57,964 nt of DNA from the IMG/VR virus record IMGVR_UViG_3300020709_000001, positions 1-57,964 of that record. One strand, 5' to 3'. The translations under genes and the position numbers were made by a program. Source of the stretch: a virus. Positions 20,684-57,964 of this stretch are shown piece by piece. Position 1 is the stretch's first letter, and each line of letters begins with the position of its first letter. The notes beneath the pieces were generated by a model. It saw only the letters and a program-made list of their open reading frames with translations. It searched no databases and was not told the DNA's origin.

Positions 20684-20931
20684 ATTTAATACTCCTGTTT
20701 AGAATTAAGAAAATACAACTTTGTACTACAAGATTCATTATACATAGTTCTTTTAAAAAGAACATAAATTTCATTTCACATTGTGACAAAACTGAAAAAG
20801 AATTTATTTCACATGATGATATAGAAAATTGTACTTTTTCTAAGAAACGTGATATGCGTGCACAAAGAAAACTTTGTCATATAGTGAAATAAGATATTGT
20901 ACTTTTTTATAGAACCATGTATAATGAACTC
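20684..20931. promoter_or_regulatory. Divergent control region with operator-like boxes
   Basis: Two facing promoters share the -10 context GAACYATGTATAATGAA: minus strand -10 at 20742-20737, plus strand -10 at 20920-20925 with -35 TTGTAC at 20897-20902 (17-nt spacer). Between them lie TTTCACATTGTGA (20774-20786), TTTCACATGATGATAT (20807-20822) and TGTCATATAGTGAAAT (20875-20890), all related to the 16-bp box of the early promoters. An inverted repeat GTTCTTTT/AAAAAGAAC lies at 20747-20763. Confidence 0.55.
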
Positions 20932-20979
20932 ATGAACAACAAAAAAGAAAGAGAGGAAAATCTACAATCTAACAGCTGA
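20932..20979 (+). CDS. Possible 15-aa leader peptide
   Basis: ATG at 20932 starts MNNKKEREENLQSNS and stops at 20979. It begins seven bases after the -10 of the plus promoter, so it would be almost leaderless. No plus-strand gene follows before 22728, so the transcript would run antisense to the small terminase gene. It may not be translated at all. Confidence 0.25.
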   Translation: MNNKKEREENLQSNS

Positions 20980-22566: not shown

Positions 22567-22621
22567 TTCTAACCTATTCTCGAACATTCTCACACACGAA
22601 TTGTCGATTTCTCACTATTTA

Positions 22622-22663
22622 TTTCACATAGTGATATCAAATAGTTCAAATCTATGGTATAAT
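22622..22663 (+). promoter_or_regulatory. Early promoter with 16-bp upstream box
   Basis: Box TTTCACATAGTGATAT (22622-22637), 20-nt gap, extended -10 TGGTATAAT (-10 hexamer 22658-22663). The same arrangement with the same 20-nt gap occurs at 24056-24097 and 27526-27567. There is no consensus -35. It drives the gene group from 22728. Confidence 0.7.
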
Positions 22664-22727
22664 GTTTATGTCGGAAATAACATTTTCGATTTTGTAGATT
22701 CTAAATTCTAAACTAAGGAGCATTACT

Positions 22728-23515: not shown

Positions 23516-23770
23516 ATGAATACCACTGATTCAGTTCAACCTTTTCACTTTTATGCTGCCAACTATGCAGAGTGGCGCACATCCGATAATATTAACGATG
23601 TTATCGATTGGTTTAAAAAACAGAAAGCAACCTATACCATTTTCTACGTTCCATTGCCTAATGCGGCGAATTACGAGATCAAGTGGTATGCTCCACAAGT
23701 AGAAGGTTGCCAGTACCTAGGTACGTACAAAGGCACCAAGCTCTATGATGCCGAGAAAGAGGCTGCATAG
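23516..23770 (+). CDS. Small early protein upstream of the ribozyme
   Basis: 84 aa from the ATG at 23516 (MNTTDSVQPFHFYAANYAEW...), aromatic-rich, with a central helix INDVIDWFKKQ and an IKWYAPQVEG strand. Its stop codon TAG (23768-23770) supplies the first G of the hammerhead ribozyme stem I. Self-cleavage would detach its message from the genes downstream. Function unknown. Confidence 0.55.
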   Translation: MNTTDSVQPFHFYAANYAEWRTSDNINDVIDWFKKQKATYTIFYVPLPNAANYEIKWYAPQVEGCQYLGTYKGTKLYDAEKEAA

Positions 23771-23821
23771 ACTAACTGATGAGGCTTTAATAGCCGAAAC
23801 CACAGCGATGTGGTCTTAGTC
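23770..23821 (+). ncRNA. Hammerhead ribozyme, type I
   Basis: Stem I: GACUAA (23770-23775) with UUAGUC (23816-23821). Core CUGAUGA (23776-23782). Stem II: GGCU (23783-23786) with AGCC (23792-23795), loop UUAAU. Core GAAA (23796-23799). Stem III: CCACA (23800-23804) with UGUGG (23809-23813), GNRA tetraloop GCGA. A23799 pairs U23814, and the cleavage nucleotide is C23815 (GUC). Every invariant core base is present and all three stems pair perfectly. CUG (23763-23765) and CAG (23827-23829) could extend stem I beyond an internal loop able to contact loop II. Cleavage would leave a 23-nt leader with AGGAG before the gene at 23839. Confidence 0.88.
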
Positions 23822-23838
23822 AACAACAGGAGAAATCC

Positions 23839-24033
23839 ATGAACTTACAACCTAGTATTACTCAAGCTCAGAAAAAGACGGCTCTTAAGTTTTATAAAGA
23901 GCATTTAATGGATAACTGCAATCTTAGTGAACTTGCAGAAATGGTCATTAAATATATGCCCGCTAAAGAATTACAATCTGAACTTGAAAATGTGGTTGAA
24001 CTGTGTGATATCGAGCCTGATGGCACATACTAG
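23839..24033 (+). CDS. Small helical protein downstream of the ribozyme
   Basis: 64 aa (MNLQPSITQAQKKTALKFYK..., C-terminal acidic). Predicted all-helical. AGGAG seven bases before the ATG lies in the 3' product of the predicted ribozyme cut, so translation would be from a message with a 5'-hydroxyl end. Function unknown. Confidence 0.55.
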   Translation: MNLQPSITQAQKKTALKFYKEHLMDNCNLSELAEMVIKYMPAKELQSELENVVELCDIEPDGTY

Positions 24034-24055
24034 AATCGTACTAAGATTTAAACTA

Positions 24056-24097
24056 TTTTACATAGTGATATGAGATAGCTGTAATCTGTGGTATAAT
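24056..24097 (+). promoter_or_regulatory. Early promoter with 16-bp upstream box
   Basis: TTTTACATAGTGATAT (24056-24071), 20-nt gap, extended -10 TGGTATAAT (hexamer 24092-24097). The leader that follows (CTTAATTCTTAACTTTTAAT then CGGAG) is nearly the same as that after the 27562 promoter. Confidence 0.7.
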
Positions 24098-24142
24098 GTT
24101 TATGTAGTAACTTAATTCTTAACTTTTAATACGGAGTAAATC

Positions 24143-27521: not shown

Positions 27522-27525
27522 TTTA

Positions 27526-27567
27526 TTTCATATGATGATATTCAAAAGTACAATTATGTGGTATAAT
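27526..27567 (+). promoter_or_regulatory. Early promoter with 16-bp upstream box
   Basis: TTTCATATGATGATAT (27526-27541), 20-nt gap, extended -10 TGGTATAAT (hexamer 27562-27567). The box differs by one base from the one at 20807-20822. It starts the transcript of the DUF932 gene after a 68-nt leader ending in AAGGAG. Confidence 0.7.
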
Positions 27568-27635
27568 GTACTTGTAGTTAGTAATACAGGTTGTAAGTTT
27601 AATTCGTAATTCTTAACTTTAATAAGGAGCTTTAT

Positions 27636-56492: not shown

Positions 56493-57964
56493 TTATGCTC
56501 CTAATTGTGCTTCTAAAGCGGTTACTTTTGCGTTGAGTTCTTGAATAGCTTTAATCATTGCTGGAACTAAAGCTGACGCATCCACTTGCCAAGGTTTATC
56601 AATAGAACCATCTTCATTATCAATTCCTTGTGTTACAGCTTCAGGTGCAACATCATTTAATTCTTGAGCAATAAGTCCAAAATCAACTTGTTGTTTATTT
56701 GAAATCCAGTCAAAACTGCGAATTTTTACATTTGCTAATTTTGCCAAGCCTGAACCAGCATCAACAATATTTTCTTTTAATCGTTGGTCAGAAGTTGCGT
56801 TGTAAAGTGTATTTGTTCCGTTGTAAGTAATAGAACCAACAGCACTAAATGTTGCTCCTGAACCAAAATAATGCAAATATCTTGTTCCAGATGTTCCTTG
56901 ATTCCATGCTGTAAAACATTGAATTGCTGATGTTGCTGATGTTGAAGAAATGCCAGCACCACTACCAAAAACACCATTAACAAAGAAGGCACCATTACCA
57001 TCAATTACCATTCTAGGATTACCATCACCATCAGATAACACAATGTAGTTACTTGCTGTACGGATGTCTAGACCGCCTTGGTTGCCTGTATAAGCACCAA
57101 GAATTGTATTTTTAGAACCAGTTGAAACTAAATAACCAGAACCTACACCAATAAATGTGTTGTATTGTCCAGTTGTTTGTTGTCCAGCAAAATAACCAAC
57201 GCCTGTATTTGAAATACTTGTAGTATTACTATAAAAGGCTTGATAACCTACTGCTGTGTTGTTAGATGCGGTGGTGTTGTTTCCAAGTGCTGAATGACCA
57301 AGGGCAGTATTATAGCTACCAGTTGTATAAGCACTAGCAAAATAACCTAATGAACCATAACCAATAGCTGTCGAATATGAACCAGTTGTAAGTCCATAAC
57401 CAGCAGCTAAACCAACTGCCGTATTTTGTGTGCCAGTAGTATTGCTATAACCAGCCTGATAACCTACTGCTGTGTTATTAGATGCGGTGGTGTTTGAAAC
57501 TAATGCTGCGTAACCTATTGCAGTATTGTTTGCACCAGTTGAATTTGTATATAAAGCGCCATTACCAAATGCGCTGTTGTTTGCACCAGTTGTAGAATAT
57601 GCTGACTGATATCCTACTGCTGTATTTGCGTTTGATGTGCTATTTGTATATAAAGCACCTAAACCAATTGCAGTATTTTGTGTGCCTGTTGTGTTGGAGT
57701 ACCCAGCCTGATAACCTACTGCTGTGTTATTAGAGGCGGTGGTGTTGTTATATAAAGCCTGAATTCCTAAAGCAACATTATAAGAACCTGTTGTACTGAA
57801 ATTCATTGCATTTAAACCCATTGCAATGTTGTATGAGCCAGTTGTGTTAGCTGGCATAGCTCCAGCACCAAAAGCAGAGTTTTGTGTTCCGCTAGTGTTT
57901 GCTTTTAAAGCCGTGTAACCAAAAGCGGTATTATAGTTTCCAGTATTTGCATAAAGAGCCTGAT
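56493..57964 (-). CDS. Tail fibre with Peptidase_S74 chaperone domain, C-terminal part
   Basis: The frame is open from the right end of the window and continues the protein begun at 1271 (full length 878 aa on the circle). It continues the beta-roll repeats (NNTTASNNTAVGYQAGYSNT and variants), then a beta-rich linker, then the intramolecular chaperone: ATSDQRLKENI with catalytic Ser780 and Lys785, FDWISNKQQVDFGLIAQELN and a C-terminal coiled coil. Family members trimerise the fibre and cut themselves off before the Ser. The ATG at 57857 is internal, not the start. Confidence 0.92.
   Translation of the reverse strand, partial: QALYANTGNYNTAFGYTALKANTSGTQNSAFGAGAMPANTTGSYNIAMGLNAMNFSTTGSYNVALGIQALYNNTTASNNTAVGYQAGYSNTTGTQNTAIGLGALYTNSTSNANTAVGYQSAYSTTGANNSAFGNGALYTNSTGANNTAIGYAALVSNTTASNNTAVGYQAGYSNTTGTQNTAVGLAAGYGLTTGSYSTAIGYGSLGYFASAYTTGSYNTALGHSALGNNTTASNNTAVGYQAFYSNTTSISNTGVGYFAGQQTTGQYNTFIGVGSGYLVSTGSKNTILGAYTGNQGGLDIRTASNYIVLSDGDGNPRMVIDGNGAFFVNGVFGSGAGISSTSATSAIQCFTAWNQGTSGTRYLHYFGSGATFSAVGSITYNGTNTLYNATSDQRLKENIVDAGSGLAKLANVKIRSFDWISNKQQVDFGLIAQELNDVAPEAVTQGIDNEDGSIDKPWQVDASALVPAMIKAIQELNAKVTALEAQLGA
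57859..57964. repeat. Terminal direct repeat (right copy)
   Basis: Exact copy of bases 1-106. It lies inside the coding sequence of the S74 tail fibre gene, which is itself internally repetitive, so the number of repeat units at this point could be mis-assembled. Confidence 0.95.

Follow-up and report, generated by a model that had tools for sequence, protein, structure and literature searches.

In phages and prophages, type I hammerhead ribozymes occur in arrays that flank small, non-constant genes, and splitting of polycistronic transcripts has been proposed for these arrays (Perreault 2011; PMC3088659). Some of the arrays cleave in vitro and in E. coli (PMC3088659). The purpose of hammerheads in bacteria and phages has been called open since they were discovered there (PMC6155905; PMC3088659). 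RiboJ, which was engineered from sTRSV and is followed by a 23-nt hairpin, is placed between a promoter and a ribosome binding site and renders the 5' end of the mRNA independent of the upstream sequence; in E. coli the transcript rises about twofold and protein two- to tenfold (PMC6206723). The PeSL of T4-like phages, a small repeated element between early genes, is said to shuffle genes between related phages (Arbiol 2010; Comeau 2014; both via PMC4503421). The start-associated sequences of Cluster K mycobacteriophages are likewise repeated just upstream of many unrelated small genes and consist of a 13-bp motif, in some cases accompanied by an inverted repeat, but contain no ribozyme (PMC3203893).

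The window analysed here is the whole 57,964-nt stretch of the IMG/VR virus record IMGVR_UViG_3300020709_000001, in which a hammerhead lies between two genes, A and C (Table 1). Core, stems and topology are like those of the phage and prophage hammerheads of PMC3088659, from which the window copy and most of its relatives differ in falling below the Rfam 15 gathering scores. A measure of gene exchange and the fixed spacing of stop codon and leader are added here to that description and were not found in the literature searched. As with RiboJ, the hammerhead stands just before a ribosome binding site and would make the 5' end of the mRNA independent of what lies upstream, but its leader is short and it follows a gene, not a promoter. 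The PeSL, in the outline given by PMC4503421, combines a promoter with a stem-loop and acts on transcription, whereas the hammerhead lacks both and works at the level of RNA. No promoter or terminator was predicted at 23770-23838, and on the terms of that outline the locus was not classed as a PeSL-type cassette; the function may be alike.

Table 1. Coordinates of the hammerhead, its parts and the neighbouring features in the window.
Feature	Position	Strand	Basis or detail
Type I hammerhead ribozyme	23770-23821	+	Sequence, chance test, covariation, covariance model
Stem I	23770-23775 / 23816-23821	+	Sequence; GACUAA / UUAGUC
Catalytic core CUGAUGA	23776-23782	+	Sequence
Stem II	23783-23786 / 23792-23795	+	Sequence; GGCU / AGCC, loop UUAAU
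Core GAA	23796-23798	+	Sequence
Stem III	23799-23804 / 23809-23814	+	ACCACA / UGUGGU; A15.1-U16.1 plus 5 bp, GCGA loop
H17 = C	23815	+	Sequence
Predicted self-cleavage site C/U	23815-23816	+	H17 position in established core
Predicted post-cleavage 5' leader of downstream mRNA	23816-23838	+	23 nt; AGGAG at 23828-23832
Gene A, upstream	23516-23770	+	84 aa from ATG 23516; in-frame ATG also at 23432
Gene C, downstream	23839-24033	+	64 aa; other genes stand here in close relatives
Promoter-like repeat, head of operon (gene A, ribozyme, gene C)	22620-22693	+	Repeat family D1; putative function
Promoter-like repeat, second copy, just past gene C	24054-24127	+	Repeat family D1
Promoter-like repeat, third, weaker copy	27524-27597		Repeat family D1

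Direct reading confirmed the earlier note's claim that every invariant hammerhead base is present: CUGANGA, GAA, A15.1-U16.1 and an H17 other than G all occur at 23770-23821. Stems I, II and III have the 6, 4 and 5 pairs and the GCGA loop that it had described, and loops close stems II and III, while stem I is open. Stem I does begin on the last base of the gene A stop codon UAG (23768-23770), and the positions given for a cut after C23815, a 23-nt leader with AGGAG and an ATG at 23839 are correct, the cleavage itself being predicted. For the 67-nt element (23763-23829) that the note had proposed, the MFE structure is the hammerhead fold (z = −2.46), yet only 23770-23821 was upheld. Its outer stem (CUG 23763-65 with CAG 23827-29), and with it the internal loop that this stem would make, found no support, since flank pairing of at least 3 bp was as frequent with shuffled mates (56.1%) as with the true ones (56.8% of hammerheads); the supported element is therefore confined to 23770-23821.

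A covariance model built from 74 hammerheads, the window copy among them, scored that copy at 81 bits. The covariance-model search found no second convincing hammerhead in the window (next-best match E 0.07), and a pattern search gave a single full match in the whole window. In 400 shuffled windows, searched on both strands with criteria looser than the window copy satisfies, six matches were obtained. A chance motif was ruled out by the shuffled windows, by stem formation relative to shuffled sequence and by intact cores in bystander hammerheads (both below). A complete type I hammerhead at 23770-23821, with its predicted cut located between two genes, is well supported. In a longer, uncut transcript the predicted MFE structure lacks the ribozyme, stem II being paired instead with the first bases of gene C (GGCTCTTAAG; pairing within 23779-23895); this competing fold is probably incidental because gene C is replaced in relatives and gene D differs there, and co-transcriptional folding should avoid it.

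With Rfam 15 at the gathering score, which is an annotation cut-off and not a biological criterion, RF00163 and RF00008 gave no match in the window, and there was one match in 13 loci that jointly hold several dozen complete hammerheads. The best match at relaxed threshold was the RAGATH-1 hammerhead (RF03152, E 0.068), the catalytic core of which is identical to that of the window copy. Membership of RAGATH-1 was rejected: the window copy scores 24.3 bits where the gathering threshold is 56.3, and its alignment to the RAGATH-1 5' hairpin contains mismatches. The Rfam gathering thresholds overlook nearly all of these hammerheads, and standard annotation misses a common phage RNA element.

Neither gene A nor gene C had a match in a PHROGs search. 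Genes for DNA primase, polymerase and helicase lie downstream of gene C, so that the label 'early genes' is reasonable for A and C, if presumptive. The promoter-like repeat is 74 bp long, its copies being 62-77% identical to that at 22620, and is likely to be the early promoter of the phage; the copies contain TATGGTATAATG or TGTGGTATAATG, and each precedes a gene cluster. A tRNA search of the window found none, a search of INPHARED gave no DNA match to the hammerhead region, and the DNA polymerase of the window is at most about 34% identical to those of named phages. The two ends of the record carry one direct repeat of 100 bases or more (1-106 and 57859-57964 of 57,964), a pattern of complete genomes that are circular or terminally redundant. 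Past a terminase-like gene lies an inverted repeat (20720-20790 / 20873-20943) with arms of about 71 bp and roughly 78% identity.

Hammerheads of this type were found in hundreds of viral contigs. Three DNA patterns, each consisting of the fixed core with part of stem II or one flank, matched at least 120 viral contigs apiece. This core-pattern test presupposes neither stem I nor stem III, and 63%, 71% and 93% of the distinct matches listed for the three patterns also form both, compared with about 0.1% after shuffling of the downstream sequence. Among 74 hammerheads, which were picked by their pairing, both sides had changed in 14 of 16 pairs and 99.7% of cells were paired. The compensatory changes that the earlier note had proposed to look for in related phages were found, in close relatives, in stem II (GGCU/AGCC, GCCC/GGGC and GCUC/GAGC) and in stem III (CCACA/UGUGG and CCCC/GGGG). 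Bystander hammerheads, those that share a contig with the one searched for, had an intact core in 86 cases and a mutant core in one, which shows selection on the catalytic core; the stems are under selection as well. The census contained no element with H17 = G, although the pattern permitted it. The single mutant bystander with intact stems (L024, about 2650, − strand; GGTTAACCGATGAGGC...) carries U4 to C in the core and is perhaps a dying copy.

The surroundings of the element are regular. In 373 hammerheads the distance from the cut to the ATG is mostly 20-35 nt, and the upstream stop codon either abuts stem I or is the UGA within CUGAUGA (the latter in about 41 of the 373). The conserved architecture has a 6-bp stem I and a loop II consensus of UNANU; an unpaired A stands on both sides of stem I in 243 of 278 hammerheads, and no additional conserved domain was seen. 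The conserved A's and loop II are the features that bear on a possible tertiary contact of loop II with the region of stem I. Two isolates, Pelagibacter phage HTVC019P and Flavobacterium phage elemoB, carry a hammerhead of this model. An extended leader, (C)AACTGCTAGGAG, is shared 3' of the ribozyme by L004, L095, L230, L263, L293, L312 and L318; because these are different contigs, leader and ribozyme may travel together. A second architecture, with a stem I of 4-5 bp and a stem II of 5-7 bp, occurs in L014, L026, L027, L068, L084, L099 and others. Its loop II (UGGU, UGGAU or UGGCU) is complementary to the bases just 3' of stem I, with which it apparently covaries; pseudoknots of this kind have been described (PMC3088659).

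Relatives of the window were collected with gene A, not the ribozyme, as query. L325-L329, the nearest, share 93-97% identity with the window as far as about 23832; the ribozyme and its leader are retained to that point, and the gene that follows in the relatives is C, D, E or X. Gene C follows in the window and in L324, gene D in L325, L327, L328 and L329, and gene E in L326, where stem II is altered by compensatory pairs. In the more distant L331 the order is X then C, and stem III is altered by compensatory pairs. L330 has the order A, F (ATGA overlap), ribozyme, E, D, and its gene F terminates within the ribozyme, at the UGA of CUGAUGA (254-430). In L332 gene A is joined to C by an ATGA overlap without a ribozyme; such joining of A to C or, in L330, to F means that the junction can exist without one. 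Homology between the window and its relatives returns near 24043, ahead of the second promoter-like repeat. In this series ribozyme and leader are constant and the genes are variable.

The same tendency was measured across contigs. Homology broke at 35.5% of hammerhead junctions and at 18.6% of other same-strand junctions (p = 8e-6); junctions within 2.5 kb of a hammerhead gave 21.4%, and random windows 7.8%. For loci fetched later with a different pattern, breaks occurred at 83.6% of hammerhead junctions and 29.7% of other junctions, but these loci all share the ribozyme sequence and alignments may be pulled to the ribozyme edges, so that more weight was given to a gene-level adjacency test. 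In about 400 loci, with duplicates removed and shared genes 70-97% identical, a gene kept its neighbour at a frequency of 0.32 across hammerhead junctions, compared with 0.56 across other junctions (p = 3e-7) and 0.50 across other junctions within 2.5 kb (p = 1e-4). The lower adjacency also held against short-ORF and gapped junctions before duplicate removal. Of 166 downstream swaps 132 retained the hammerhead, as did 118 of 181 upstream swaps, against a baseline of 329 of 4368 junctions, although this persistence (and possibly the 83.6% above) is inflated, most contigs having been fetched for holding a hammerhead. By these comparisons the hammerhead marks borders of gene exchange; the type of gene, instead of the ribozyme, could account for the lability of the junctions.

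We consider it reasonably probable that the element is a natural insulator or adaptor resembling RiboJ, by which early genes become interchangeable. Insulation is the most economical mechanism. The hammerhead would cut the early transcript past the stop codon of gene A and ahead of the short leader of the next gene. The upstream mRNA would keep its stop codon and end in the folded ribozyme, and the downstream mRNA would begin with a short standard leader bearing its own ribosome binding site, whatever gene had preceded it. Each gene would be separated by the cut from the sequence before it, which is what would make ribozyme and leader an adaptor, and genes on either side could be exchanged and still be expressed. 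The position of the window hammerhead fits this RiboJ-like function. The common ribozyme sequence may also supply homology for recombination. That the window copy cleaves, that this affects expression and that recombination passes through the ribozyme are all inferences. A 5'-OH end may slow 5'-end-dependent decay.

The first alternative is plain mRNA processing, in which the cut in the polycistron sets the stability or ratio of two products; the nearby swapping would be incidental, the ribozymes being located by chance among accessory genes that change fast. Splitting of a polycistronic message by the window hammerhead, as the earlier note also proposed, is plausible and has been proposed for phage arrays (PMC3088659), and the geometry of leader and stop codon agrees with it, as does an operon with one ribozyme flanked by two promoter-like repeats. 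Against it, synteny is higher at junctions within 2.5 kb of a hammerhead, at small-ORF junctions and at gapped ones than at the hammerhead junctions themselves, and the ribozyme remains whichever neighbour changes and so is not tied to one gene pair. We regard plain processing as unlikely, though far from negligible.

A more elaborate form of the exchange idea concerns stem I. Hammerheads would again be exchange adaptors, with cleavage making early genes plug-and-play, but each product RNA would receive one strand of stem I, recombinants within the ribozyme would be active only with matching stem I halves, and the hexamer would serve as a compatibility key, so that phages with the same key would form a gene-sharing club. 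Stem I hexamer identity was 0.91 and 0.83 for exchange partners and 0.53 for unrelated pairs. The comparison within and between contigs was confined to stems I and III, the patterns having fixed part of stem II, and gave similarities of 0.80 within and 0.52 between for stem I, and 0.63 and 0.53 for stem III. Exact-hexamer enrichment was alike for both stems (35.6% against 5.0% for stem I, 12.0% against 1.5% for stem III), and for this reason no claim is made that stem I by itself is under selection. The identity profiles resolved no crossover point inside the ribozyme. We hold the key to be doubtful.

The hexamer identity of exchange partners could also be read as a role in DNA only, the element being a short homology block for early-gene recombination and its cleavage irrelevant; that homology stops at the ribozyme edges in many contig pairs agrees with this. 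Compensatory stem changes, however, keep the fold while lowering DNA homology, and the ratio of intact to mutant bystander cores and the missing H17 = G argue against an irrelevant cleavage, which makes a DNA-only role very improbable. Only a slim chance is given to a regulated switch, in which cleavage would free the ribosome binding site, or a ligand or terminating ribosome would control the cut. The stop codon abuts or overlaps the ribozyme, in L330 as the core UGA itself, so that a terminating ribosome should block folding. The predicted SD accessibility is equal for cut and uncut RNA, contrary to the note's suggestion that the cut might uncover the ribosome binding site; the outer stem lacks conservation, and an extra conserved domain is not seen. 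Release of a gene-sized RNA by paired hammerheads, to be circularised by ligation or moved between transcripts, would suit arrays such as that of L286 (whole contig G007, 39.8 kb; 14 hammerheads, all on one strand) but is extremely improbable here, the window phage having one hammerhead and circular or spliced products having been sought and not found in comparable arrays (PMC3088659).

That phage hammerheads flank non-constant small genes, the idea that they split transcripts and the activity of such hammerheads are already published (PMC3088659). What is added here is a quantified association with gene exchange and a series of alleles at one site; neither was found in the literature searched, a body outside which most subscription journals lie. 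Near-identical phages that differ behind the ribozyme, together with the excess of exchange at hammerhead junctions, provide a testable claim on the role of phage hammerheads. If the insulation claim is true, these phages would achieve modular gene exchange by the same trick for which RiboJ is used in synthetic biology.
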